Part shown: positions 977 through 49,921 of the stretch, piece by piece
How positions within the stretch are numbered: position 1 is the first letter of the stretch
Layout of the letters: every line of letters starts with the position of its first letter
Source: Bacillota bacterium
GTDB taxonomy: Bacteria > Bacillota > Clostridia > Peptostreptococcales > Anaerovoracaceae
Direction: 5' to 3'
Length of the DNA stretch: 64,000 nucleotides
Assembly: GCA_021769295.1 (NCBI GenBank)
Contig: JAETTD010000001.1
Location: 62,001 to 126,000, forward strand
Made by a program: the position numbers and the translations under genes
The notes under the pieces: model-generated
What the model was told of the DNA's origin: nothing
Seen by the model: only the letters and a program-made list of their open reading frames with translations
Database searches by the model: none

Positions 977-1197
977 TGCCGTAAATTTTGAAAAAATGCT
1001 CAGATGCGGCATTATGGGGTGCATAATGATGACCAAACTGCCGTATTTTTAGAAAAATTCTTTATATACGGCATTTTTTGGCCTCCAACAGCTAAAAAAA
1101 TGCCGCATTCTTGAAAAAATTTCTCGAATGCGGCATTATCGCTACTCAGTACGCTGTTAAACTGCCGTAAATCATAAAATTTTATTGAATTGCGGCA
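977..1197. repeat. 62-bp palindrome array, TGCCG family, array 1 (4 units)
   Basis: Four units of TGCCGY-N23-RCGGCA start at 977, 1039, 1101 and 1163. Right half-sites start at 1006, 1068, 1130 and 1192. Each step is exactly 62 bp and each core is 35 bp. The 27-bp linkers share no clear sequence apart from A/T-rich edges. The array fills most of the gap between the amidohydrolase 3' end and whiA. Bases 768-976 hold the whiA leader and nothing else I recognise. Confidence 0.9.
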
Positions 1198-9876: not shown

Positions 9877-10097
9877 TGCCGCAACCGGAGATTTTTTTGA
9901 AGTTTGCGGCAGTTTTACCGTCATTGAAGCTCCTAAAATGCCGTAACTGAGTGAATTTTTGACATTTACGGCATTTTATCTGTCATTATGCCTTATAAAC
10001 TGCCGTAAATAAAAGAAATTTTGTAAATTCCGGCAATTTGGACGCTCTCACCGCAATAAAAATGCCGCATTTAAGGATTTTTTTGACTTTTGCGGCA
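9877..10097. repeat. 62-bp palindrome array, TGCCG family, array 2 (4 units)
   Basis: Left half-sites start at 9877, 9939, 10001 and 10063. Right half-sites start at 9906, 9968, 10030 and 10092. Steps are exactly 62 bp. One right half-site (10030) is CCGGCA, a single mismatch. The array lies between two convergent genes and between their terminators (9778 and 10123), so it would be poorly transcribed from either side. Confidence 0.9.
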
Positions 10098-16286: not shown

Positions 16287-16507
16287 TGCCGTAAAATCTG
16301 AATATTCTTTTAAATGCGGCATTTCTGCCGGTCAACAGACGGCCGGATTGCCGCAAATTTTTAAAATTCTTCCATTTACGGCATTTTTACCGCCTAATAG
16401 CCATAAAAACTGCCGCAAACCTCATAGAATTCATAAAATGCGGCAGTATTGACCCTTTGAAAGCCTTCAAACTGCCGCAAATGGCATAAAATTTATAAAA
16501 TACGGCA
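16287..16507. repeat. 62-bp palindrome array, TGCCG family, array 3 (4 units)
   Basis: Left half-sites start at 16287, 16349, 16411 and 16473. Right half-sites start at 16316, 16378, 16440 and 16502. All steps are 62 bp. The array begins 28 bp after the dnaJ stop (minus direction), and I see no classical terminator between dnaJ and the BKACE promoter, so it may be transcribed as the 3' end of the heat-shock mRNA. Bases 16143-16286 show nothing else. Confidence 0.9.
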
Positions 16508-28170: not shown

Positions 28171-29052
28171 TTAAGAATATATGCCGGGATGAAGTGTTAT
28201 ATTTATGGCATTTGCGATAATGTCCGAAAAATCTTTTATTATTTCGTCTATATCCGTTGACGTTACAATCATGTCCAGCTCTTTTCGCTCCATATATTTT
28301 TCTGCGGCAGCTTCGTCCCATGAGTCGATATTTTCGGCTGCTTCCATTATCAGAGTTCTTGAGTCTATCACCGTAGGCACACCTACAGACACCACCTTGC
28401 ATCCCAGCGTGGCCTCTGAAATAGGCTTTCGCCTGTTACCCATACCTGCTCCGGGCTCAATTCCCGTATCGCAGAGCTGAATGGTTGTGCTCATTCTTTC
28501 CATATTGCGTGCAGCCAAAGAGTCCACTATAATGACAACGTCGGGCTTTGTTAAGGATACAATCTTTTCTATCAGGTCAGCGGTTTCCATTCCGGTAACT
28601 CCCGTCACGGAAGGGTTAAATCCGCTGACATTGGCCATTTCCCAGTCTCCGTCAGCTCCGAACATATCAAAGAGATGAGCGGTTATCTTAACTTTATCTA
28701 TGGTATGAGGCCCAAGGCTGTCAGGCGTTACTTTTTCGTTGCCAAGTCCCACCACCAAGGCTTTAAGATAATAGTTGAAGGGAATCATCTTTTTAAGTTC
28801 ATGGGCTAAAGCGTGGGCAGCTCTCTCCTTTATATTGTCCTTTTGCTCCAAAATTCCTTCCACTTCTATGGTTATATAGTTCCCCTGGGCTTTGTTAAAT
28901 GCTCTTGCCCCCTCTTCGCTGTTAATTATTATTTCGGTCACGCAAATATCTTCATCTATCTGCTTTTGCTTCTTGATGTATCCCACGGCTCTCTGCCTTG
29001 CCTCATCAAGCAATTCCTGATTTTCTATGGCTAAATCGGTCCTGTACTGCAT
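28171..29052 (-). CDS. gpr: GPR endopeptidase (germination protease)
   Basis: The track starts at 29280, but ATG 29052 (MQYRTDLAIENQEL) has AGGAG 8 bp upstream, and the 76 residues removed are coded by repeat DNA. The product is 293 aa. It shows TDLAIE near the zymogen cleavage region, GLGNEKVTPDSLGPHT, DSLAARN and IEPGAGMGNRRK, all characteristic of the GPR aspartic-type protease that degrades small acid-soluble spore proteins on germination. Supports a spore-forming host. Confidence 0.94.
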   Translation of the reverse strand: MQYRTDLAIENQELLDEARQRAVGYIKKQKQIDEDICVTEIIINSEEGARAFNKAQGNYITIEVEGILEQKDNIKERAAHALAHELKKMIPFNYYLKALVVGLGNEKVTPDSLGPHTIDKVKITAHLFDMFGADGDWEMANVSGFNPSVTGVTGMETADLIEKIVSLTKPDVVIIVDSLAARNMERMSTTIQLCDTGIEPGAGMGNRRKPISEATLGCKVVSVGVPTVIDSRTLIMEAAENIDSWDEAAAEKYMERKELDMIVTSTDIDEIIKDFSDIIANAINITLHPGIYS

Positions 29053-29198: not shown

Positions 29199-29386
29199 GC
29201 ACGTTTTTGTGATTTTGTGCAATAATGTTAGCAAAAATGCAAAACGTCGCAGCAGAGCTACAACGTTTCTGTAGTTTCACGCAATTATGTTAAGGTTTTC
29301 TGAAATCGTGTTGCCGGAGCTACAACATTCCTGCAATTTCATGCAATTATGTTATGGATTTTGCAGATTGTGGTTATCCGGTCGAA
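29199..29386. repeat. 62-bp repeat array, ATGTT family, left copy (3 cores)
   Basis: ATGTT boxes at 29225, 29287 and 29349 are exactly 62 bp apart. Each ends an imperfect palindrome of the form AACRTTnCTGC-N8-GCAATTATGTT. The second full unit is nearly identical to units of the right copy. The last 44 bp (TGCAATTATGTTATGGATTT onward to CCGGTCGA) recurs exactly at 40255. Confidence 0.85.
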
Positions 29387-29448
29387 GTCAGCTTCTATTA
29401 GAGAACACAACAGATAATCCCTTTACAAATAACTGAATATAGTTCTTT

Positions 29449-29506
29449 GAAGCACCTGCTACTGACCGAGAGAAAAATCGGTTAAACGGCGGGTGCTTTT
29501 ACTTTT
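29449..29506 (+). terminator. Terminator-like hairpin at left end of element
   Basis: AAGCACC...GGTGCTTTT pairs around an inner ACCG/CGGT stem, followed by a T-rich stretch. It may insulate the element from outside transcription. Confidence 0.45.
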
Positions 29507-29556
29507 TCAAAAAATCAGAATACGAGGTCTAAATTACACTTCCCTTACGGGCTATT

Positions 29557-29588
29557 GGGTGAGAGGTCAAATCCTTTCGCCCTTTTTT
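29557..29588 (+). terminator. Terminator, degenerate copy of the one at 39340
   Basis: GGGTGAGAGG / CCTTTCGCCC followed by TTTTTT. The surrounding 50 bp (GGGCTATTGGGTGAGAGGTCAA) repeats the sequence after the sigma-like gene at 39340. Bases 29589-29800 hold no gene I can support. Confidence 0.6.
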
Positions 29589-29805
29589 GTTGCGCTTCTT
29601 GAAAATTGAATAGCAGCCGCCAGAGGGATACCTGCCGCAGCGGACAGCAGAGCGATGATATGAGCCTGCCCGCTGCTTAATCCGTGCATAGCACCGGCAG
29701 AGAAAACGCCGCTTAAAGGAAGCGTGGAACTGTATGGGAGGGCTGTGCTTACATATCCCTGATTCACTTGACAGGGATAAATCTATTTTCAAGGAGGAAA
29801 CGCCT

Positions 29806-29889
29806 ATGTGCAACAACAGGAAACCAAAGCGGAAGGAGGGATTGTATGCAGAAGTTGCAAACGGTCAACGCCGACACGCTCCTTTATGA
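29806..29889 (+). CDS. Possible 27-aa leader ORF of the RepA-like gene
   Basis: ATG 29806 follows CAAGGAGG with good spacing and reads MCNNRKPKRKEGLYAEVANG to a stop at 29889, overlapping the RepA-like start at 29846 in another frame. It could be a translational leader or chance. Low confidence. Confidence 0.25.
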   Translation: MCNNRKPKRKEGLYAEVANGQRRHAPL

Positions 29890-30898
29890 GCCGCTTGAGA
29901 AGCCGTCCTTTGTGGTGGACGGTCTGATACCCACAGGCTTGACCCTGTTATGCGGCTCGCAGAAAATCGGCAAGAGCTGGCTCATGCTCAAGCTCTGCCT
30001 ATGCGTGTCACAGGGCTTGCCCCTATGGGATATGCCGACATTAGAGAGCGATGTGCTGTACCTCTGCCTTGAGGACACCTTCTGCCGCATACAGGACAGG
30101 CTCTTTAAGCTGACAGACGAGGCAAGCGGGCGGCTTCATTTTGCCGTGGCAAGCTGCAAGCTGCCAGACGGTCTTATCGTGCAGCTTGAGGACTATCTGA
30201 AGGAGTACCCAGACAGCAGGCTCATTGTCATTGACACCTTGCAGAAGGTACGCACCGCTTCTAAGGACAACGCCTACGCCAACGATTATGGGGACATCTC
30301 CCTTATCAAAGACTTTGCTGACAGGCATTCCCTGTCGGTAGTGGTCGTACACCATATCCGCAAGCAGAATGACAGTGATGTGTTCAACAAAGTATCTGGA
30401 ACGACAGGCTTGACGGGAAGTGCGGACGCTACCTTTGTACTGGAAAAAGAAAGCAGGGCTTCCGATACCGCAAGGCTCTATGTGACGGGCAGGGACACGC
30501 CCTATCAGGAGTTTACGCTCCGCTTCCATGATTGCAGTTGGGAGCTTGTGGAGCGCAGGACGCAGGAACAGGCAGCGGCGGCGGAAATCCCGCCCGTCCT
30601 CTTTCGGCTTGTGGAATTTATGCAGGACAAAACCGAGTGGTCGGGTACGGCAACAGAGCTTGCCGCCGCAATGGGGGAAACCAGAGCCGCACCCAACGCC
30701 CTCACCAAGTGGATGAATGAGTACCGCATGGGTTTTCTGGCGGAAAACCATATCCGCTATGATTACCACCGAAAAAACAGCGGCAGGCTGATTCTGCTTG
30801 CAAGGCAGGACAAGGGCGGCGGTGACGATGGTGACGGTAGTGACGGTGTTTTTGGGATACCCCCTGCCGTTGTCACTGTCACCGATAGCGTGTGCTGA
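29846..30898 (+). CDS. RepA-like AAA ATPase/helicase of the element
   Basis: The track starts at 29768, but ATG 29846 (MQKLQTVNAD) has AAGGAGGG and removes 26 non-domain residues, leaving 350 aa. It is an AAA_25/RepA-type hexameric helicase: Walker A region CGSQKIGKSWLMLKL (about 37-50), Walker B VIDTLQKV, then VVHHIRKQ and the GSADATFVLEK sensor. A winged-helix-like C-terminal part follows. Such proteins support replication or mobilization of integrative elements. The last 25 residues (GGGDDGDGSDGVFGIPP) are encoded by one arm of the GACGGTG inverted repeat, so the tail is probably a by-product of that DNA. Confidence 0.75.
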   Translation: MQKLQTVNADTLLYEPLEKPSFVVDGLIPTGLTLLCGSQKIGKSWLMLKLCLCVSQGLPLWDMPTLESDVLYLCLEDTFCRIQDRLFKLTDEASGRLHFAVASCKLPDGLIVQLEDYLKEYPDSRLIVIDTLQKVRTASKDNAYANDYGDISLIKDFADRHSLSVVVVHHIRKQNDSDVFNKVSGTTGLTGSADATFVLEKESRASDTARLYVTGRDTPYQEFTLRFHDCSWELVERRTQEQAAAAEIPPVLFRLVEFMQDKTEWSGTATELAAAMGETRAAPNALTKWMNEYRMGFLAENHIRYDYHRKNSGRLILLARQDKGGGDDGDGSDGVFGIPPAVVTVTDSVC

Positions 30899-31279
30899 AA
30901 CGGCAGTCTTGCCCTGCGGGTGACAGCTATGTGTGTGGTGACGGTGATTTCGGGACGCCCCGCCGCTGCCACCCTTCGGGAGAACACCCCGTAAACGCAA
31001 AATGCAGGCGTGGGGATTACTCGCCCTCTCTCGGCTCGTAAACCCACCCCTGCGTCAGAAAAATCGTGCCGATTTTTCCGACAGCGTTTACAGGGTGTAA
31101 CACACTACACCTTGCAAGCAAGGTCGTGTGCCAGCCGTTCCCTCTGGACTCCCTTATGGCAGGGCTTACGCCCTGCTTTATCCTCCGCCTTGCTTCGGAT
31201 AAAAGGACGGCGGCGTGACGGTGGCGGCTCCCGTGAGGGGGTATCCCAAAACCACCGTCACTACCGTCACCACCGTCAC
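30821..31279. other. Candidate oriT/oriV region with GTGACGGTG iterons in inverted repeats
   Basis: The block GTGACGGTAGTGACGGTG followed by TTTTTGGGATACCCCC (30821-30868) returns in inverted orientation at 31234-31279 (GGGGGTATCCCAAAACCACC and so on). A third, partial direct copy lies at 30933-30970. The gap 30899-31324 is gene-free, GC-rich and directly upstream of the relaxase gene, the usual site of an origin of transfer. The nic site cannot be named. Confidence 0.5.
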
Positions 31280-31324
31280 GCAAGGGAGGAATACCCGCCG
31301 AAAAAAGAAAGGAGAATGTCGCCT

Positions 31325-32290
31325 ATGCCTTATGCAATCCTGCGCTTTAAAAAGCGCAAGGCAGGCTCTGTCGCTTCCTGCGAACGCCACAACGAGCGGA
31401 AGAAAGAAGCCTACAAGAGCAACCCAGATATAGATATGGAACGCTCTAAAAACAATTACCACCTTGTTAATCCACCCCGCTACACCTACAAGAAAGAGAT
31501 TAACCGAAAGGTTGCGGAAGCGGGCTGCAAGGTGCGCCGTGACAGCGTGATGATGGTGGAAACGCTCATCACCGCTTCGCCAGAATTTATGAACAGTTTA
31601 CCACCCGCCGAGCAGAAAGCGTATTTTACAGAGGCTTTAGACTTTATTGCGGAGCGTGTCGGGAAGCAGAATATCCTCTCCGCCGTGGTGCATATGGACG
31701 AGAAAACGCCCCATATGCACCTCTGCTTTGTGCCGATTACGCCAGATAACAAGTTGTCGGCGAAAGCCATTTTAGGCAACCAGAAATCCTTATCCGAGTG
31801 GCAGACCGCCTACCATGAGCGTATATCGGCAAGGTGGAATGAGCTTGAAAGAGGACAGTCCTCTATGATTACAAAGCGGAAGCATATTCCCACTTGGCTC
31901 TTTAAGACGGCTTCCAGACTGGATAAGCAGTATGATGAAATCGTGTCTGCCCTCTCCGATATTAACGCCTTTAACGCAGGGAAAAAGCGTGACAAGGCTC
32001 TGGAACTGATTGCGGCATGGCTGCCCGAAGTGGAGAAATTCTCTAAGGAAATCGGGAAACAGAGCGCCTATATCGAGAGCCTGAAGGCACAAATCGGGCA
32101 GGAAGCCGACTATGCCGAGCGTATGCGTGATGGGAAATATGCGGAGGAACTGAAGGTGCGGGAAGCAAACAAAAAGATATTTGAATTGCAGAGAACCAAC
32201 GAGCAGATGGGACGGCTGCTGAAAAAGATACCGCCCGAAGTGTTGGAGGAAATCCAAAAACCGAACAGAAACCAGACCAGAGAAAGGTAG
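31325..32290 (+). CDS. MobV family relaxase (plasmid recombination/mobilization protein)
   Basis: The track starts at 31010. ATG 31325 (MPYAILRFKKRKAGS) has AAAGGAGA upstream and gives 321 aa. It shows the N-terminal substrate motif SCERHNERKKEAYKSNPDID, motif NPPRYTY and the metal-binding HMDEKTPHMHLCFVPI (HxDExxPHxH) of Mob_Pre proteins. Coiled-coil character (about 240-310) follows. It would nick the element's oriT for mobilization by a helper conjugation system. ParB follows after 7 bp. In Tn4451 the matching role is played by TnpZ; I do not claim orthology. Confidence 0.85.
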   Translation: MPYAILRFKKRKAGSVASCERHNERKKEAYKSNPDIDMERSKNNYHLVNPPRYTYKKEINRKVAEAGCKVRRDSVMMVETLITASPEFMNSLPPAEQKAYFTEALDFIAERVGKQNILSAVVHMDEKTPHMHLCFVPITPDNKLSAKAILGNQKSLSEWQTAYHERISARWNELERGQSSMITKRKHIPTWLFKTASRLDKQYDEIVSALSDINAFNAGKKRDKALELIAAWLPEVEKFSKEIGKQSAYIESLKAQIGQEADYAERMRDGKYAEELKVREANKKIFELQRTNEQMGRLLKKIPPEVLEEIQKPNRNQTRER

Positions 32291-32297
32291 GAATTGA

Positions 32298-33152
32298 ATG
32301 AAGAAACAGGATTTTACCGTGTTGAAGATTAAGGATTTACACCCTTTCCCCGACAACCCGTTCCGTGTCGTGGAGGACGAACTGCTGATGGAAATGTCGG
32401 AAAGCATTAAGGAATTTGGAATTGTCACGCCGATTATCGCCCGCCCGAAGGAGGACGGGGACGGTTACGAGGTCATTGCAGGACAGCGGCGTGTGAGGGC
32501 TTCACAGCTTGCAGGGATAGATACCGTCCCTGCTTTTGTTTTGCCCTTAGACCGTGACAGGGCGATTATTACCCTTGTGGACAGCAACATGCAGCGTGAA
32601 AATATCCTGCCGAGCGAGCGTACCTTTGCCTACAAGATGAAATTAGAAGCGATGAAGCGGCAGGGCTTCCGCACGGATTTAACTTCTGCCCAAGTTGGGG
32701 AGAAGTTGACTTCGGTGGAGCAGCTTGCGAAGCAGAGCGCAAACAGCCGCACCCAGATACAGCGTTTTATCCGACTGACCGAACTGATACCGCCGATTTT
32801 GCAGATGGTGGACGAGGGGAAAATCGCCCTCACGCCTGCGGTGGAGTTATCGTTTTTGAAGAAGGACGAGCAGGAAAACCTGTTCACCACAATGGAGAGC
32901 GAGGAAGCAACGCCCTCTTTATCGCAGGCGCAGCGTATGAAGCAGCTAAGCCAGACGGGGCGGCTTGACATGGATACCATCTTTGCGGTTATGACCGAGG
33001 AAAAGGCAAACCAGAAAGAAACGCTGAAAATCAAGACCGACAAGCTAAGGAAATACTTCCCGAAAGGCACAACGCCGAAGCAGATGGAGGACTTCATTAT
33101 CCGCCTGTTGGAGCGTGAATTGCAGCGGAAACGAAGCCGTGACAGCCGATAA
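32298..33152 (+). CDS. ParB/RepB/Spo0J family partition protein
   Basis: 284 aa. The ParB nuclease-like N-terminus has IKDLHPFPDNPFRV, then EFGIVTPIIARP, the GYEVIAGQRRVRASQLAG box II and DSNMQRENILPSERTFAYKMK. A central helix-turn-helix (LTSVEQLAKQSANSRTQIQRFIRL) and a C-terminal helical part follow. No ParA is present in the element, so a role in control of mobilization or excision is as likely as true partition. Start ATG 32298 has GGTAGGAAT upstream. Confidence 0.88.
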   Translation: MKKQDFTVLKIKDLHPFPDNPFRVVEDELLMEMSESIKEFGIVTPIIARPKEDGDGYEVIAGQRRVRASQLAGIDTVPAFVLPLDRDRAIITLVDSNMQRENILPSERTFAYKMKLEAMKRQGFRTDLTSAQVGEKLTSVEQLAKQSANSRTQIQRFIRLTELIPPILQMVDEGKIALTPAVELSFLKKDEQENLFTTMESEEATPSLSQAQRMKQLSQTGRLDMDTIFAVMTEEKANQKETLKIKTDKLRKYFPKGTTPKQMEDFIIRLLERELQRKRSRDSR

Positions 33153-33197
33153 TGTCCTTTTTTCGGATAGTAAACACAGAAAGTTGAGGTTTAGAAA

Positions 33198-33422
33198 ATG
33201 AAAGATATTCAATATGAGATTGTAAAGGAAATCGCTGTTTTATCCAAAAGCGACAGCGGCTACACGAAGGAAATCAACCTGATTTCTTGGAACGGGAAAG
33301 AGCCGAAGTACGATATACGCAGCTTCTCCCCCGACCGTGAGAAGTGCGGCAAGGGCATTACGCTGACCGAAGCGGAAGCAAAATCGCTTCTGGAAGCATT
33401 AAGAAAACAACTGAATGACTGA
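33198..33422 (+). CDS. YdbC family (PC4-like) protein
   Basis: 74 aa. The sequence EIVKEIAVLSKSDSGYTKEIN then NGKEPKYDIR and FSPDREKCGKGITLTEAE matches the single-domain YdbC/PC4 fold that binds single-stranded DNA as a dimer. It is full length for the family. It is often found in integrative elements near the relaxase or recombinase; its role here is unknown. Confidence 0.75.
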   Translation: MKDIQYEIVKEIAVLSKSDSGYTKEINLISWNGKEPKYDIRSFSPDREKCGKGITLTEAEAKSLLEALRKQLND

Positions 33423-33488
33423 TATGATTTGCGGATTAGGGGCGTTTTCGGACGCCCTTTTCCCATTTTGAAGGGAGGGTATCTGCCG

Positions 33489-33680
33489 ATGGCAAGAACG
33501 GCTACACGCCCGAAGATTACCGTGCAGGCGGTCTATTCTGGTGAAAAGGATATGCAGGAGATGTTTGTTTCCCTGCTTGTCAATGCGGTGCGGAAAGGGA
33601 AATCCTCTGTCCGCACCTTTGAGATTGTGAAAGATACAGACTACAATTTACCCATAACCGATGAAAAGGAGGCGAGCTGA
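33489..33680 (+). CDS. Small element protein upstream of the serine recombinase
   Basis: ATG 33489 (MARTATRPKITVQAVYSG) follows GGGAGGG and gives 63 aa; the track's longer form from 33429 adds 20 residues without support. Its stop abuts the recombinase ATG, so the two are translationally coupled. No domain recognised. It sits where small TnpW-like proteins occur in related elements, but similarity is not proven. Confidence 0.65.
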   Translation: MARTATRPKITVQAVYSGEKDMQEMFVSLLVNAVRKGKSSVRTFEIVKDTDYNLPITDEKEAS

Positions 33681-35373
33681 ATGAGCATTTTAAGGACAGC
33701 TCTCTACTGCCGTTTATCCAAAGACGACGATATGGCACAGGGCGACAGCGAGAGCATTAAGACACAGAAAGCAATGCTGACACAGTACGCAAAGGAACAC
33801 GGCTTTATGGTGGTGGAAATCTATGTGGACGATGGTTGGAGCGGCTTAAATTTCGACAGACCAGATTTTAACCGTATGCTCGATGACATCGAAGCGGGCA
33901 GGATTGATGTGGTCATCACAAAGGATTTATCCCGTCTGGGGCGTGACCATCTGAAGGTCGGGCACTTCACGGAGATATATTTCCCGATGAAAAATGTGCG
34001 GTACATCGCCGTCAATGACTGCGTGGACACCGCCAACCGAAACAACGATATAGCGGCTCTGAAAAATGTGATGAACGAATTTTACTCAAGGGACAATTCA
34101 AGGAAAATCCGTTCGTCCATACGGGCAAGGGCAAAGGCGGGGCTTTACCGCTGTTCCTATGCCCCGTTCGGCTATCGGAAAACGCCCGATAACCATAACA
34201 GACTGATAATTGACGAGGAAACAGCCCCGATTGTGAAGCGGATTTTTGCGCTTGCGGGCGCAGGAATGGGGGGCGCACAAAATCGCAAAGCAGCTTCGGG
34301 AGGAACAGGCAGCCGCCCCCTCTTGGTGGCAGCACACCCGTGGGGAGAAGGACTATTCCCAACGCTTTTCCAATCCAGAGAACAAATATGAGTGGTCGCA
34401 TACCGTTATCCGCAATATTATCAAAAACCCCGTCTATCTCGGTCACACTATCATGTGCAAGAAGGAGATTATCTTCAAGGTCGGGAAATACAGGGATATA
34501 CCAGAGGAAGAACAGATACGGGTGGACAACACCCACGAGCCGCTTGTCACGCAGGAGGATTTTGACAATGCAAACGCTAAGATTTTAAGCCGCAGGCGGG
34601 ATACAACCGATAATTTTGTATCGCCCTTTTCAGGGCTTGTGAAGTGCGGCACTTGCGGGAAAGCGTTGGGCTTGCGGTATTGGGGGAAAGACAGACATCA
34701 CATTTTTGTCTGTACCACTTATGCCCGCAATACAAAATCCTGTACCGACCACCGCATTTTCTACGATGATTTATACAATGCGGTGCTTGCCGATATTCAG
34801 TACCATGCCCGAATTGCCTATGAGGACAGGGAGAAGGCGGTGGCTCTGGCGGTCAGAATGAATGAGAAAGCGGACGGAAGCCGTGGGAAATCCAACGAAG
34901 CGAAGCTGAAACAGGCGAGGAAACGCTACGATGAAGTGACAAGGCTGTTTGACAGGCTCTATGAGGATTCCCTTTCGGGGCGTATCTCCAATGACAACTT
35001 CTCCCGCCTGATAGACAAATACCAGACGGAGCAGGAGCAGCTTTTGGGGCAGATACAGGCGATAGAGAACGCCTTGCAGGAGGTAAGGGACAACCAGCAG
35101 AACGCCGTGAAATGGGCGGACTTGATGGCACAGTATGTGGGAATACAGGAACTGACCGCCGAAAACCTCAACCTTCTCATTGAGCGGATTGAAGTGTTTG
35201 ACCGAACGGAAACAGACGGGGAAACCGAGCAGGTAATCCGTATCTGTTACCGCTTCGGCGGTTACATAGGGGAACACCGCTTTAAGGCAAAGGTTTTAAG
35301 GAATACGGGCGGTTGGGAGCAACGCCGCAAAAAAGAAAGGAAAGACAATGGAAAAGTATCATTTGTATCTTGA
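33681..35373 (+). pseudogene. Large serine recombinase (TnpX-like), frameshifted
   Basis: Two overlapping frames together make one TnpX-type site-specific recombinase of about 563 aa. The first (33681-34391) has the resolvase catalytic domain: TALYCRLSKDD with the nucleophile Ser13, ESIKTQKAMLTQYA, VDDGWSGLNFDRP and KDLSRLGRDHLKVG. It loses frame after FALAGAGMG. The second continues from about 34262 with AHKIAKQLREE, the recombinase domain, the zinc-ribbon CGTCGKALGLRYWG and a coiled coil. The join is a run of six G (ATGGGGGGCGCAC); five G restores one protein. As read, the catalytic domain is cut off from the DNA-binding part, so the element would be locked in place unless slippage or a sequencing error explains it. 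Confidence 0.85.
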
Positions 35374-35518
35374 CGAAGCGGAACGGCGGCTGATCATCCT
35401 CTGCCTAAATGAGCTTAGAAACAGGCTCATAGCCGAGGGCAGATATACCGACTGCGTAGACGAACTGCTGATAAAGGCGGCAGGGGCAAAGAAAGTGAAA
35501 TTAAAAATACGGAGGTAA
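35348..35518 (+). CDS. Small element protein (56 aa)
   Basis: Not in the track. ATG 35348 follows AAAGAAAGGAAAG and overlaps the recombinase end by 26 bp. The product MEKYHLYLDEAERRLIILCL continues to KKVKLKIRR. Its stop is 6 bp before tnpV and contains that gene's GGAGG. Small proteins of this kind accompany TnpV in related elements. Function unknown. Confidence 0.7.
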   Translation: MEKYHLYLDEAERRLIILCLNELRNRLIAEGRYTDCVDELLIKAAGAKKVKLKIRR

Positions 35519-35524
35519 CGGACA

Positions 35525-35899
35525 ATGGCAAAATCAATCTTTGAGGAAATGGGCGGCAGATACGAAAGACAGGGCGATTACATTCTCCCCTGCCTTACCG
35601 TACCGCCCGAAGAAGAAAAGCCAATAGGCGTTTTCGGACAGCGGCACTTGCGGTATCTGCGGGAGTACCGCAAAGTTACATACACCAATCTTCTAACAAG
35701 CGGCAGGCTCAACACCTACCTTGCCGACATCGATAAACAGGCACAGGAACGCTTTGAAAGGCTCATAGAGGGCATGAAGCAGGCACAGGGTATCACGGAA
35801 CAGCTAAAGGCAGAAAACGCGTTAGAATGGACAGGAAGAATGAATAACATAAGGGCTTGTGCGATGGAGATTGTGAATGAAGAAATCATTTTCGCATAG
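35525..35899 (+). CDS. tnpV: Transposon-encoded protein TnpV
   Basis: 124 aa. MAKSIFEEMGGRYERQGDYI, then PIGVFGQRHLRYLREY, LLTSGRLNTYLADIDKQAQ and the C-terminal RMNNIRACAMEIVNEEIIF are characteristic of TnpV from Tn4451/Tn4453-type elements. The protein is mainly helical and of unknown biochemical role; in Tn4451 it lies just downstream of tnpX, as here. This gene is the main reason for the Tn4451-like label. Confidence 0.85.
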   Translation: MAKSIFEEMGGRYERQGDYILPCLTVPPEEEKPIGVFGQRHLRYLREYRKVTYTNLLTSGRLNTYLADIDKQAQERFERLIEGMKQAQGITEQLKAENALEWTGRMNNIRACAMEIVNEEIIFA

Positions 35900-35904
35900 C
35901 AGAC

Positions 35905-35935
35905 AAGCGGCAGGGAGAAATCTCTGCCGCTTTTG
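35905..35935 (+). terminator. Terminator after tnpV
   Basis: AAGCGGCAGGGAGA / TCTCTGCCGCTTTT, a strong stem ending in TTTT, 6 bp after the tnpV stop. It separates the mobilization genes from the cargo. Confidence 0.8.
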
Positions 35936-35965
35936 GGAAATGTTAGAAAAGATAACGGAATGGTC

Positions 35966-35994
35966 TTCTCAAAAACGGTCAATGGATTTATAAT
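35966..35994 (+). promoter_or_regulatory. Promoter of the TetR cargo operon
   Basis: TTCTCA and a perfect TATAAT (35989-35994) are separated by 17 bp. The operator palindrome lies 9 bp further on. Confidence 0.55.
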
Positions 35995-36003
35995 ATCTCT
36001 GTA

Positions 36004-36020
36004 TTAACCGATACGGTTAA
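36004..36020 (+). promoter_or_regulatory. Operator palindrome of the TetR regulator
   Basis: TTAACCG-ATA-CGGTTAA, a perfect 7-3-7 inverted repeat between the -10 box and the ribosome site of the TetR gene. This is the expected place for autoregulation. Confidence 0.7.
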
Positions 36021-36033
36021 CGAGGAGGACGCT

Positions 36034-36648
36034 ATGAATGATAAGTTTTTCAATCTACCGTTAGAGAAGCAACAGCGGATTATCAACGCTGCATATAAAG
36101 TGTTTTCACAGAGCAGCTACAAGAAAGCACCTATGTCAGAGATTGCCGATGAGAGCGGCATATCCAAAGCGTTGCTGTTCCATTACTTTACAAATAAAAA
36201 AGAGCTGTATTTGTATCTATGGATAAATGCTATAGAAATGACAAGAAAGGCAGTCCGAGAGTATAAGACCTTGGAAACAAATGATTTTTTTGAAATGCTG
36301 AAAAGAAGCCTGCTTTCAAAATGCTCCCTTATGCGGGATTATCCGCATATGTACGCCTTTTCATTGCGGGCGTATTATGAAACAGCTTCCGAAATCAAAA
36401 GTGCCATTCAAGAGAATTTTTCTGATGTCAGTAAGACAAGTGAAATGATTGTATTTGAAAAAATGGATACATCAAGACTTCGGAAAGATATTGACCTTAA
36501 AACAATGTATGATGAGATTTTCTATGCTATTGACGGATATATGCTAAAAAAATACCGTTCTAATCGTATCATTCCAGATGAAATCGAACTGGAGATTATT
36601 TCCTTAATTGACTTTTGGAAGAAGGTTTACACACAGAAGGAGGCGTGA
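36034..36648 (+). CDS. TetR/AcrR family transcriptional regulator
   Basis: 204 aa. The N-terminal helix-turn-helix reads QQRIINAAYKVFSQSSYKKAPMSEIADESGISKALLFHYFTNKKELYLYLW (quoted in part: IADESGISKALLFHYFTNK), typical of TetR. The ligand-binding C-terminal domain is family-variable. It starts after CGAGGAGG, follows a perfect operator palindrome, and is 4 bp ahead of the first alpha/beta hydrolase. It probably represses itself and the two hydrolases until a small molecule binds. Confidence 0.88.
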   Translation: MNDKFFNLPLEKQQRIINAAYKVFSQSSYKKAPMSEIADESGISKALLFHYFTNKKELYLYLWINAIEMTRKAVREYKTLETNDFFEMLKRSLLSKCSLMRDYPHMYAFSLRAYYETASEIKSAIQENFSDVSKTSEMIVFEKMDTSRLRKDIDLKTMYDEIFYAIDGYMLKKYRSNRIIPDEIELEIISLIDFWKKVYTQKEA

Positions 36649-36652
36649 AAAA

Positions 36653-37465
36653 ATGCAGCATAAGACGATTGCGGCACAAGGCGGAATTGTACATTATTGG
36701 ATTGACAGAAAAGAAAACACCGCTGACTGTATTGTTTTCACACATGGCGTAACGGCAGACCATACAATGTTTGAAAAGCAGGTATCCTATTTTTCTGATA
36801 ACTACACAATAATTCTTTGGGATGTTCCCATGCACGGTCTGTCAAGACCTTATCATGGATTTTCTTATCATGATACGGCTGAAATATTACATAGCATTTT
36901 GCAAAAAGAAAATATTAAAAAAGTATTTTTGATTGGAATGTCGATGGGAGGTTATCCAAGCCAACATTTTGCGAGTATTTATCCCGATATGGTAAAAGGA
37001 TTTATAGCTTTGGACACAACGCCGTTAGGCTGCGGCTATTACTCAAAATCAGACTTATGGTGGCTCAGGCAGGTTGCTCCAATGGCAAAATGTTTTCCCA
37101 CAAATATTCTAAGGATAAGTATGGCTCGGTCAGTGTCAAAGCGTAAATACTCGTATCAAAAGATGATGGCTATGCTAAAATCAGTTTCAAAGGCAGAAAT
37201 CATTGAGCAAATGCGAGTGGCATATGAGTATTTCCCAATGGAAAACAAAGATGTTGATTTTCGGTTTCCTGTGTTGATACTTGTAGGTGAAAAGGATAGT
37301 ACAGGTAAGGTGAAATCGTATTGCAGGGAATGGGCAAAGCAAACTGGGTATCCCCTCCACTTCATAAAAGGAGCAAAGCATTTTTCAAATGGGGATAATC
37401 CAGAGCAGGTAAACAAAGAAATAGAGGATTTTATCCACACGGTTGTTCAGCAAGAAAGGAAATGA
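36653..37465 (+). CDS. Alpha/beta hydrolase (cargo 1)
   Basis: ATG 36653 (MQHKTIAAQGGIVHYW) follows AGGAGG; the track's start at 36608 overlaps the TetR gene. 270 aa. Nucleophile elbow GMSMGG, oxyanion segment FTHGVTADHTMF, acid in VGEKDST and histidine in GAKHFSNG. It is probably an esterase, lactonase or acyl hydrolase; substrate unknown. The gene overlaps the next hydrolase by a few bases. Its A+T content is clearly higher than that of the mobilization genes. Confidence 0.85.
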   Translation: MQHKTIAAQGGIVHYWIDRKENTADCIVFTHGVTADHTMFEKQVSYFSDNYTIILWDVPMHGLSRPYHGFSYHDTAEILHSILQKENIKKVFLIGMSMGGYPSQHFASIYPDMVKGFIALDTTPLGCGYYSKSDLWWLRQVAPMAKCFPTNILRISMARSVSKRKYSYQKMMAMLKSVSKAEIIEQMRVAYEYFPMENKDVDFRFPVLILVGEKDSTGKVKSYCREWAKQTGYPLHFIKGAKHFSNGDNPEQVNKEIEDFIHTVVQQERK

Positions 37466-37467
37466 CT

Positions 37468-38217
37468 ATGCTATATTTTGATGAATATGGAAACAAAGAT
37501 AATCCAACTATCCTATTGTTGCATGTTGCAGGTGCGCTTGACACATTTTGCAATCAATACTGCTTTTCCGAGCAATACCATTTAATCGTACCCCATTTGT
37601 ACGGAGCAGGAAAATCAGCAGATAAAGTTTACGACCCCGATAGGATGAAGCGGGAACTTTGGGAACTGATTGACAGCTTGCACAAGGAGAAAATCGGCGT
37701 AATCGGACATTCCCTCGGCGGGCAGCTTGCAATCATGCTTGTTTGTGAGCGACCAAGCCAATTTCGTTTTACAGTCTTTTTAAGTGCATGGGTAAATCCA
37801 AATCCAAAAACTGTTAAAATGTATTGCTCACTTGCGGGAATGGCAGCGAAAATGCTCCACATAAAATGGCTTGTCTGTTTTCAAGGGAAGTATTGGAACT
37901 ATACCAAAAAGCAGGCGGAGTATATGGCAGATTATTCAAGGCTTATTACTCCGCAGATTTACAGGTCATTTTTTGCAAACACATTAGATTTACGGAATGT
38001 CCCTATATATTTTTCTGTCAAAGTCCCGATGTTGGCAATATGTGGCAGCGGCGAAGTAAAGGATATGAAGCTATCTCTTGATATGCTCGGTAAAAATTCC
38101 TGTTGCAAAACGATGATACTTCCAAGAGCAGGTCATGATTTCCCTATGAGGAATAGAGGTCAGCTTAGTACGGTGCTAAATGATTTCTTCTTAGGTAAGG
38201 TAAAAGAGAATGAATAA
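37468..38217 (+). CDS. Alpha/beta hydrolase (cargo 2)
   Basis: The second ATG (37468, MLYFDEYGNKDNPTILLLH) is preferred over 37462 because AAAGG then has 8-bp spacing; 249 aa. Nucleophile GHSLGG (about 78-83), acid and histidine in the C-terminal part (PRAGHDFPM). It is a distant relative of cargo 1, so the pair may act on the same compound. The KTR gene starts inside its last codons. Confidence 0.82.
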   Translation: MLYFDEYGNKDNPTILLLHVAGALDTFCNQYCFSEQYHLIVPHLYGAGKSADKVYDPDRMKRELWELIDSLHKEKIGVIGHSLGGQLAIMLVCERPSQFRFTVFLSAWVNPNPKTVKMYCSLAGMAAKMLHIKWLVCFQGKYWNYTKKQAEYMADYSRLITPQIYRSFFANTLDLRNVPIYFSVKVPMLAICGSGEVKDMKLSLDMLGKNSCCKTMILPRAGHDFPMRNRGQLSTVLNDFFLGKVKENE

Positions 38218-38398
38218 AACAGAGTGGATACGCTGCCCTATCTGCGGAAACAAAACCCGTAACAGAATTAGAGAAGATACTGTTTTGAAAAACTTTCCCC
38301 TCTACTGCCCGAAGTGCAAGCAGGAAAATTTGATTGAAGCAAAAGATTTACAAGTAAAAGTCATCAAAGAGCCAGACGCACAGACGCAGAGCCGATGA
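38210..38398 (+). CDS. Cysteine-rich KTR domain protein
   Basis: 62 aa. CPICGNKTRNRIRED and YCPKCKQENLIEA form two CxxC pairs, the zinc-binding pattern of cysteine-rich KTR proteins, which are common small passengers of mobile elements in gut Firmicutes. Function unknown. Overlaps the upstream hydrolase by 8 bp. Confidence 0.8.
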   Translation: MNKTEWIRCPICGNKTRNRIREDTVLKNFPLYCPKCKQENLIEAKDLQVKVIKEPDAQTQSR

Positions 38399-38534
38399 AC
38401 TTGTGAGAAATCACAGTTTGTCGGCTCTGCTCTTTATACCCATAGGCAGGACAAGCCCACCGAATAAAAAAACGGAGTTTTGGTGGGCTATATTGTCACG
38501 CCCGAATAAGCGGCAGACACACCTCTCCAGACCC

Positions 38535-38562
38535 CGTTTTGAGTTTGGAGGGGTGTTTTTAT
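38535..38562 (+). terminator. Terminator after cargo genes
   Basis: A CCTCTCCA / TGGAGGGG stem in an ACACC...GGTGT context, followed by TTTTT. Another weaker hairpin (AGCCCACC / GGTGGGCT) lies just upstream near 38455-38490. Confidence 0.6.
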
Positions 38563-38730
38563 GTGTTGGTCTGAAATGACCGCATCGCTGCTCATACGAA
38601 GCAGCAGCTTTCTACATAACCTCATGGCTTAGTGAGGACAATCAATTAAAAAAATTATGGCTTCTGCGTGGGGGCTTTCTACCCCAAATGTAGAAGTCAA
38701 ATCTCTACATAAAAGAAGTATTATTGCTAT

Positions 38731-38768
38731 GAACCGCAAAGGTATGACAACCTCTGCGGTTTTTCTTT
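38731..38768 (+). terminator. Hairpin with T tail in leader of sigma-like gene
   Basis: ACCGCAAAGGT / ACCTCTGCGGT followed by TTTTTCTTTT. It lies 110 bp upstream of the sigma-like gene, in gap 38399-38880, with further small stems (GCTGCT/AGCAGC, CCTCAT/GTGAGG). Together they look like a structured, possibly attenuated, leader. No ORF is supported in this gap. Confidence 0.6.
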
Positions 38769-38880
38769 TGTCGTTTTTTATCAGAACACGCCGCAGGGCT
38801 GTTTCTGATGTGCGCTGCCGTTCTCCGCCTTTCAATCTGGATTTCAACGATTTTCAAAATTCAGATTGGAGGAAATTAAA

Positions 38881-39309
38881 ATGGCATATAACCACGGACG
38901 GGAAGAACGCAAATGGCGTATCTGGAAAGAAGCCGAGGAAGCAGTTTTACGCAAGTGCGGCGTTGACGAAAACACCATTGAGAAAATCCGTACTTATGAC
39001 CGAGCAGAGTTTAATTCCAACAGGCGGTTTTACCGTTGGACAAGTGATTTCGGCGAATACCTTGAGGGGATGGCGGAGGTCGAGCCATTTGTAGATGTAA
39101 AGACCGTTGCGGATTTACTGGACGAGATTGAAAACGAAAATCTGCATCGGGCATTACTTATGGTGGACAAGCGTACCCTTCAAATCGTCCTGCTGAAAAT
39201 GCAGGGCTATTCCATAAAGGAGATTGCCCCCATCGTCCATTTGACAACAGGGGCGATTTACGCAAGGTTAGAACACCTTCGGAAAAAGCTGCGGCAATTC
39301 AAGAAGTAA
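38881..39309 (+). CDS. Sigma-70 region 4-type element regulator
   Basis: ATG 38881 (MAYNHGREERKWRIWK) follows GGAGGAAAT; 142 aa. The C-terminal 50 residues (MVDKRTLQIVLLKMQGYSIKEIAPIVHLTTGAIYARLEHLRKKL region) form a helix-turn-helix like sigma region 4. Such small proteins in Tn916-like and related elements act as regulators of transfer or excision genes. Followed by a terminator. Confidence 0.7.
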   Translation: MAYNHGREERKWRIWKEAEEAVLRKCGVDENTIEKIRTYDRAEFNSNRRFYRWTSDFGEYLEGMAEVEPFVDVKTVADLLDEIENENLHRALLMVDKRTLQIVLLKMQGYSIKEIAPIVHLTTGAIYARLEHLRKKLRQFKK

Positions 39310-39339
39310 ATCTAAAACCACACTTTCCTATGGGCTATT

Positions 39340-39373
39340 GGGTGAGAGGTCAAAAACCTCTCGCCCAATTTTT
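39340..39373 (+). terminator. Terminator after first sigma-like gene
   Basis: GGGTGAGAGGT / ACCTCTCGCCC, then AATTTTT. A degenerate copy with the same flanks is present at 29557. Confidence 0.75.
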
Positions 39374-39392
39374 ATAGCAGGAGGAAAGACAG

Positions 39393-39866
39393 TTGACTTT
39401 CTTAGACAAAGCCTACACGCTCCGAGAGGAAAGCGTTCAAAGCATTACCCATTATTACATCAGCTTTACGGACAGCACAGGAGAATTTCAGGATTTAGAA
39501 GTATCGGAAACATTGTATATTGAGTTTCGACAGTTGGAACGGAAAAACCGCAACTTACAGCAATCCGACCAAAGGCATAAAGAGCATAACGAGGTCTATG
39601 AGGAAACGCTGAACAGGCGGGCGGTATTCAAGCCGAAAGGCGTTGAAGAACTTATCATGGAAGCGGAACTCTCCGAGCTATTGCATAAGACGATAGACAG
39701 CCTGCCAGAAATCCAACGGCGGCGTTTCCTGCTCTATTATGAGTACGATTATAACTATCACCAAATCGGGGCAATGGAACATTGTACTGCTTCTTCGGTG
39801 GGTAAATCTATTTCTATAGCAAAAGAAAAGGTCAAGGCGCAGATGAAGAAATATCTCTGCGCTTGA
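39393..39866 (+). CDS. RNA polymerase sigma-70-like element protein
   Basis: TTG start at 39393 with AGGAGGAAAGACAG upstream; 157 aa. The C-terminal part LPEIQRRRFLLYYEYDYNYHQIGAMEHCTASSVGKSI is a sigma region 4 helix-turn-helix. The N-terminal half lacks a clear region 2, so it is a regulator of sigma ancestry rather than a complete sigma factor. Last gene of the element, followed by a terminator and the terminal inverted repeat. Confidence 0.72.
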   Translation: MTFLDKAYTLREESVQSITHYYISFTDSTGEFQDLEVSETLYIEFRQLERKNRNLQQSDQRHKEHNEVYEETLNRRAVFKPKGVEELIMEAELSELLHKTIDSLPEIQRRRFLLYYEYDYNYHQIGAMEHCTASSVGKSISIAKEKVKAQMKKYLCA

Positions 39867-39885
39867 CCGCTAATGAATATTGCCC

Positions 39886-39918
39886 TTGTATCTTCGGGTA
39901 TGAGGGCGTTTTTCTTAT
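39886..39918 (+). terminator. Terminator at right end of element
   Basis: GCCCTTGTATC-TTCG-GGTATGAGGGC followed by GTTTTTC. Confidence 0.75.
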
Positions 39919-39972
39919 ATGTTCTCTAATGGAATTTCACAGAGGGCAAATCACCTGAGGAGAGGTTGTGCG

Positions 39973-40091
39973 GTATACATATTTTAGGTTTTTGTATACT
40001 TTGTATACGGTTTTGGCTCATATGTATACCCGAGGTATACCTTTTCCGAATTTTCGTATACTTTGTATACCGGTTTGCCGGTTTTTGTATA
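39973..40091. repeat. 62-bp repeat array, GTATAC family (2 units, 8 boxes)
   Basis: GTATAC occurs at 39973, 39994, 40003, 40024, 40035, 40056, 40065 and 40086. Box spacing is 21, 9, 21, 11, 21, 9, 21, so the pattern repeats after exactly 62 bp. Each 21-bp pair makes a 27-bp palindrome, GTATAC-N15-GTATAC. The inner 15 bases are not conserved. Confidence 0.9.
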
Positions 40092-40112
40092 CCGCCGGCA
40101 GCTCCCCAGCAA

Positions 40113-40300
40113 CACGTTTTTATGGTTTCACGCAATAACGTTAAGGTTTTCCGAAATCGTGTTGCCGGAGCTACAACATTCCTGCAATTTCACGCAATTA
40201 TGTTAAGGTTTTCCGAAACGGTGGTGCCGACGCTACAATGCTTCTGTGAATTCATGCAATTATGTTATGGATTTTGCAGATTGTGGTTATCCGGTCGAGG
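40113..40300. repeat. 62-bp repeat array, ATGTT family, right copy (3 cores)
   Basis: Boxes at 40138 (ACGTT), 40200 and 40262 are 62 bp apart. The array is a direct repeat of the left copy (29199-29386) and includes the identical 44-bp end up to CCGGTCGA. A GC-rich, CGAG/CGGCC-rich stretch follows (40300-40410). Gap 39867-40568 therefore holds the element end, two arrays, this GC island and the nhaC terminator. Confidence 0.85.
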
Positions 40301-49700: not shown

Positions 49701-49921
49701 TGCCGCAAATCTTTGATTTTGTTTTAAATGCGGCATTTTGCGAGCTATTCTGAGGGTCGGACTGCCGCAAATTCCGAAATTTATTTTGATTGCGGCATTT
49801 TTAGGGTGTCCGGACGGGCAAAACTGCCGTAAACACAAAAAAATTCTTTAAATGCGGCATTTTCGCCGGTCGATAAAGGGCAAAACTGCTGTAAATGCCC
49901 CAATTTAATATGATTGCGGCA
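49701..49921. repeat. 62-bp palindrome array, TGCCG family, array 4 (4 units)
   Basis: Left half-sites start at 49701, 49763, 49825 and 49887 (the last is TGCTGT). Right half-sites start at 49730, 49792, 49854 and 49916. All steps are exactly 62 bp. It lies between the pckG terminator and the 3' end of the convergent unknown gene at 50000. Nothing else is seen in gap 49616-49999. Confidence 0.9.

Follow-up and report, generated by a model that had tools for sequence, protein, structure and literature searches.

Intergenic repeat arrays on a common 62-bp step in an Anaerovoracaceae genome, possible platforms for oligomeric DNA-binding proteins

We analyzed a 64,000-nucleotide stretch of contig JAETTD010000001.1 from a Bacillota bacterium of the Anaerovoracaceae (assembly GCA_021769295.1), hereafter the window. 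It contains repeat arrays with three different cores, TGCCG, ATGTT, and GTATAC (Table 1). The left neighbor of the left ATGTT array is a germination protease gene with a start codon read from the sequence at about position 29052, which places the array upstream of this gene and directly before a mobile element. A second copy of the ATGTT array is found on the far side of this element, and its final 46-47 bp match the left copy. The GTATAC array directly adjoins this right copy, with 125.5 bp from the first GTATAC dyad to the first ATGTT dyad.

Table 1. Repeat arrays in the window (positions count from its first nucleotide)
Feature	Position	Strand	Description
TGCCG quartet	977..1197	.	class II, convergent gap
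TGCCG quartet	9877..10097	.	class II, convergent gap
TGCCG quartet	16287..16507	.	class II, tandem gap
Left ATGTT array	29199..29386	+	three 62-bp units, starts 29199, 29261, 29323, plus terminal GGTTATCC segment
GTATAC array	39973..40092	+	two units; sites 39973, 39994, 40003, 40024, 40035, 40056, 40065, 40087
Right ATGTT array	40112..40298	+	three units, starts 40112, 40174, 40236; in step with GTATAC array
TGCCG quartet	49701..49921	.	class II, convergent gap

A first-pass annotation of this DNA had placed ATGTT cores at 29225, 29287, and 29349, exactly 62 bp apart, and we find the same spacing, with the three units spanning 29199-29357. Units 2 and 3 share 79% identity over 56 bp at a spacing of 62. 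The imperfect palindrome AACRTTnCTGC ascribed to these cores holds only approximately, as unit 1 of the left array lacks it. In a consensus of 66 units, the dyad falls within GTGAATTCAC, with AAC(G)(T)TTT to one side and AAT(T/A)ATGTTA to the other; conservation extends over the remainder of the 62 bp. The autocorrelation of the window peaks at lag 62, where 712 positions reach at least 0.5 identity over 124 bp; lag 124 accounts for 155 positions, and the other lags listed for none.

The annotation had further implied an excess of 62-bp autocorrelation beyond the loci it had noted. Such an excess exists in this genome and is absent from its relatives. In 456 kb chosen irrespective of arrays (the window, most of contig 48, and contig 6), the number of arrays above threshold is 26 at lag 62, 21 at lag 124, and no more than three at any other lag. 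By reading, all 26 lag-62 arrays are TGCCG (19) or ATGTT (7) arrays. No lag-62 array was found among five congeners (320 kb in total, an additional stretch being masked) or among nine further members of the family (301 kb). The pattern TGCCGNAA-N54-TGCCGNAA, which describes TGCCG motifs 62 bp apart, has 283 matches in this genome, compared with 33 for a reversed-pattern control. Elsewhere in the order, each of 392 genomes has at most two matches, and 25 of 393 genomes have any. Among the genomes searched, the array system is present in this one only, and the 62-bp finding is real and more general than first stated.

TGCCG motifs in 630 kb lie 62 bp apart in 105 cases, 61 bp in two, and 63 bp in four, the latter two at background level; longer distances are 124 bp (66 cases), 186 bp (30 cases), and 248 bp (three cases, which is background). 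The half-sites are 30 bp apart inside a unit and 32 bp from those of the next unit, and their orientation alternates. After inspection, 839 kb yielded 61 TGCCG arrays, 50 with four units, one with five, six with three, and four with two, some of the short ones ending at contig ends. These came from 62 chains: a two-unit chain (L232:13757) was a chance occurrence and was dropped, and four of the five 5-unit chains consisted of four units and a chance neighbor. We estimate 94 arrays per genome by scaling the pattern count, or 106 from array density. One quartet (L041:142-362) has near-identical halves, with an identity of 0.92 at lag 124; it is a recent 124-bp internal duplication and still has four units.

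The TGCCG quartets fall into two classes. Class I accounts for 17 of the first 32 quartets and consists of dispersed copies with 79-92% identity to one reference, about 350-400 bp long and without coding capacity. Their inverted ends of about 19 bp (four mismatches or fewer) are kept on at least one side in 9 of 17 copies, five of which have one end and four both. Class II comprises the other 15 of the first 32 quartets and 20 in the extended set, and its members have only the half-sites and their register in common. The class II statistics are restricted to quartets in which all three steps are exactly 62 bp and the flanks are complete, and our claim on spacing thus rests on the motif distances in 630 kb.

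We next consider what is conserved in class II arrays besides spacing. At one pair of arm positions in 80 units, the combinations T-A (30), T-G (7), C-A (24), and C-G (7) occur independently (Fisher p 0.77); another five pairs of positions are also near independent expectation. RNA or cruciform pairing is thus not what is conserved at the tested positions. The arm association in class I units (p 5e-4) was set aside, because these units are recent copies and hence not independent. Spacer identity in class II is 0.542 between spacers of the same index, 0.535 between those of different index, and 0.554 within an array, with a column expectation of 0.543. To judge from these sequences, the spacers are saturated or were never shared, and the step is exact throughout; the 62-bp step thus appears to outlive the sequence it spans. 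A/T power at 10.33 bp (62/6) is 4.94 in class II, compared with 0.87 when half-sites are fixed and spacers shuffled, and all 20 arrays exceed 95% of their own null. This phasing covers the entire 221 bp, and it is the pattern expected for DNA on a protein surface. Placement was assessed in 615 kb not selected for arrays, with open reading frames called at 90 or more amino acids. Here, a TGCCG array is present in 12 of 50 convergent gaps, compared with 12 of 265 gaps that are tandem or divergent (Fisher p 4.6e-5). Of 39 arrays compared with called reading frames, 34 are free of overlap, and the remaining overlaps are partial or spurious.

In our first sample, 18 ATGTT arrays have at least three units: 14 have three, two have four, one has seven, and one has nine. 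On the stronger strand, 45 of 48 steps measure 62 bp, two 63 bp, and one 61 bp. Unlike TGCCG arrays, ATGTT arrays (single units included) are located in 11 tandem, three divergent, and two convergent gaps. The 10.33-bp A/T phasing is absent from them (0.48, versus 0.32 in flanks). Given this absence and the conservation of the whole 62-bp unit, simple tandem copying could suffice to explain ATGTT arrays on their own. The two longest ones (L124:160-690, nine units; L137:1652-2060, seven units) are found near contig starts, where the assembly may have been interrupted by the repeats.

The GTATAC unit has sites at 0, 21, 30, and 51. Clusters of at least three such sites occur ten times, and nine of the ten adjoin either an ATGTT array or an ATGTT unit, one array in L135 accounting for two of the nine; the tenth (L125) is apparently a chance occurrence. 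The distances between GTATAC and ATGTT dyads are 63, 63.5, 64, 64, 64.5, and 64.5 bp, with exceptions at 52 and 74 bp, which deviate by roughly one turn of the helix in either direction. Five of these loci were found again under stricter scan criteria. GTATAC units and usually three ATGTT units thus form a composite, in which the 62-bp step continues through both cores. One step through two unrelated cores is not explained by tandem copying of a single unit. The first-pass annotation had counted three unrelated cores on one period. The period is indeed common, but GTATAC adjoining ATGTT as one composite leaves two independent array types rather than three. The common spacing mechanism it had postulated is well supported by TGCCG arrays (exact step, spacers without homology, helical A/T phasing) and by the GTATAC-ATGTT junction; ATGTT arrays alone lend it none, and no ruler protein was found.

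Searches outside the genome returned nothing that resembles these arrays. The right ATGTT array has no match at E 1e-3 in 40 relatives; a plasmid collection contains no match for the ATGTT array or for a class I TGCCG array, and a phage collection none for the latter, the only query used there. The ATGTT 62-bp pattern occurs in 50 stretches of genome_contigs and 11 of viral_contigs, and the TGCCG 62-bp pattern in two stretches of viral_contigs. Among the pattern loci from these two collections, seven (L140, L144, L153, L156, L165, L177, and L186) have lag-62 stretches above threshold and none resembles the arrays described here. As the search pattern itself selects for lag 62, these loci are no evidence for the same system. 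Unrelated 62-bp tandem arrays are found in Alkalicoccobacillus porphyridii and Solitalea longa (L165:624-1451, L186:4200-6564). A literature search on 62-bp, palindromic, tandem, and regularly spaced intergenic repeats, covering mostly papers available without subscription, returned no description of such arrays.

We then searched for a protein that binds or mobilizes the arrays. Lrp-family regulators bind aligned sites with center-to-center distances of two or three helical turns and can wrap DNA as oligomers (PMC2995911). For RemA, octameric rings have been proposed to wrap DNA (PMC8481266). With these geometries known, a platform with a three-turn geometry appears realistic. On present evidence neither protein is the binder. 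A RemA gene (PF04025) has no match in this genome and was found in 2 of 13 genomes searched. The genome contains a single Lrp/AsnC-family gene, with orthologs in two of five congeners; these two have no TGCCG pattern, and Lrp was thus rejected as an array-specific binder. Lrp/AsnC sites also differ in being few and located at regulated promoters, whereas here about a hundred arrays lie mostly away from promoters. No common gene family was found beside ATGTT or TGCCG arrays, where a few unrelated pairs of loci share domains (ABC transporters, HTH), and Pfam searches on 10 of 47 array-facing genes returned LytTR, HTH_3, and other ordinary domains, with no family in common. A Y1/IS200/RAYT transposase (PF01797) has no match in the whole genome; as a control, the family was found in 5 of 14 genomes. 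Neither a binding protein nor any other mobilizer emerged from these searches.

We favor, at about an even chance, the reading in which the arrays serve as platforms for oligomeric proteins that bind DNA sequence-specifically. An oligomer would contact the DNA every three helical turns, or about 31 bp, in alternating orientation, which would give a 62-bp repeat of six turns. The TGCCG platform would have a set size of four units, that is eight half-sites, on DNA helically phased as for wrapping, and would be placed mostly in 3'-3' gene gaps. The GTATAC-ATGTT composite may represent another platform, in which two different cores follow this same step, and paralogs with one geometry would account for the difference in cores. 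The bound proteins would then be related oligomers, and the spacing would be under purifying selection. Wrapping is supported for TGCCG arrays only, as ATGTT arrays lack the 10.33-bp phasing. As a tentative and rather doubtful extension, the arrays could belong to a chromatin-like system private to one species. At least two proteins with different DNA specificities and one oligomer geometry would form nucleosome-like particles of set size at more than 100 intergenic places on a six-turn ruler, occupying about 248 bp at TGCCG quartets and about 310 bp at GTATAC-ATGTT composites. A fixed particle size fails for ATGTT arrays, as arrays of four, seven, and nine units exist.

The hundred or so arrays look like private landing platforms for DNA-wrapping proteins or like an undescribed mobile repeat, and the latter is the alternative that we consider unlikely rather than remote. 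The arrays would then be noncoding selfish elements, comparable to REP/REPIN sequences without a RAYT, with a mobilizer that needs palindromes at a set distance and cores that differ by subfamily. The dispersed class I copies with their partly kept inverted ends would fit this reading, as would the absence of the system from congeners and an intergenic placement that prefers convergent gaps, where insertions harm least. On the platform reading as well, class I appears to be a TGCCG subfamily that has, in addition, dispersed in the manner of a small MITE, with partly kept inverted ends and no coding capacity; it differs from MITEs in that its conserved core is the internal quartet and its ends are often missing, and neither a parent element with a transposase (630 kb sampled) nor target duplications (flanks inspected by eye) were found. 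Class II arrays, however, keep half-sites and spacing without residual whole-array homology, unlike recent mobile copies. REP and BIME sequences, as described in PMC2817692, are likewise intergenic, abundant, and regularly spaced palindromic units in alternating orientation. The arrays described here differ from them in the lack of a detected Y1/RAYT gene and of arm covariation, in an exact six-turn step with mostly exactly four units, in the use of one step by at least two unrelated element types, and in A/T phasing over 221 bp. A further criterion for REP and BIME sequences is binding of gyrase, Pol I, or IHF. A CRISPR array was rejected, as the repeats are imperfect and class I arrays have spacers in common.

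BIME-2 elements are bound and cleaved by gyrase, and gyrase sites in Escherichia coli have a periodic GC pattern, according to PMC6379681. It is thus conceivable, although distinctly unlikely, that our arrays are BIME-like topological elements, with helically phased DNA that draws gyrase, or a different topoisomerase, to the space between converging genes, a place where positive supercoils accumulate. Their enrichment in convergent gaps and the 10.33-bp A/T phasing agree with this, and helical A/T and G/C periodicity is likewise a feature of the gyrase motif on wrapped DNA. But the gyrase pattern given there has a 10.75-bp period and consists of two arms with a central gap between them, whereas A/T power in class II arrays is 0.14 at that period and the phasing is continuous; gyrase also leaves the invariant TGCCG half-sites and the ATGTT and GTATAC cores unexplained. 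Tandem duplication with gene conversion could have set the period, the shared 62 bp being a coincidence or the trace of one lost ancestor. The conservation of ATGTT units over their full length, the variable unit number of these arrays, and the internal duplication in L041 speak for such a process; yet it predicts neither saturated class II spacers without loss of register, nor a four-unit limit, nor helical phasing, nor one step across GTATAC and ATGTT, and this already weakened explanation appears improbable. That the units are RNA hairpins (terminators or small RNAs) or folded single-strand recombination sites of the attC type is suggested by inverted arms 30 bp apart and by the many arrays close to gene ends. 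We consider it very improbable, given the six arm position pairs without covariation in 80 class II units and the absence of an Rfam match at gathering score within the window. If the platforms are indeed bound by protein, they would be an example of bacterial DNA whose regular wrapping is encoded in its sequence, with particles of defined size and a single ruler for different recognition sequences. If the arrays are selfish, they would be a RAYT-less class of palindromic repeats whose spacing is maintained at an integral number of helical turns. With either reading, the origin and register-keeping of a new genome-wide repeat system in one species become testable.

The mobile element between the two ATGTT copies (29386-39945) has ends that read TTCTATTAGAGAAC and GTTCTCTAATGGAA, the left end following directly, by reading, on the left array. 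It contains genes for Mob_Pre, ParB-like, serine recombinase, TetR, and alpha/beta hydrolase proteins. The large serine recombinase (33681-35373) is distributed over two overlapping frames, one with the resolvase N-terminal domain and the other with the Recombinase and zinc-ribbon domains, and looks frameshifted. The element also contains an imperfect inverted repeat (30822-31279) built of GTGACGGT-like units, with 44-nt arms that are 95% complementary and 370 nt between them.
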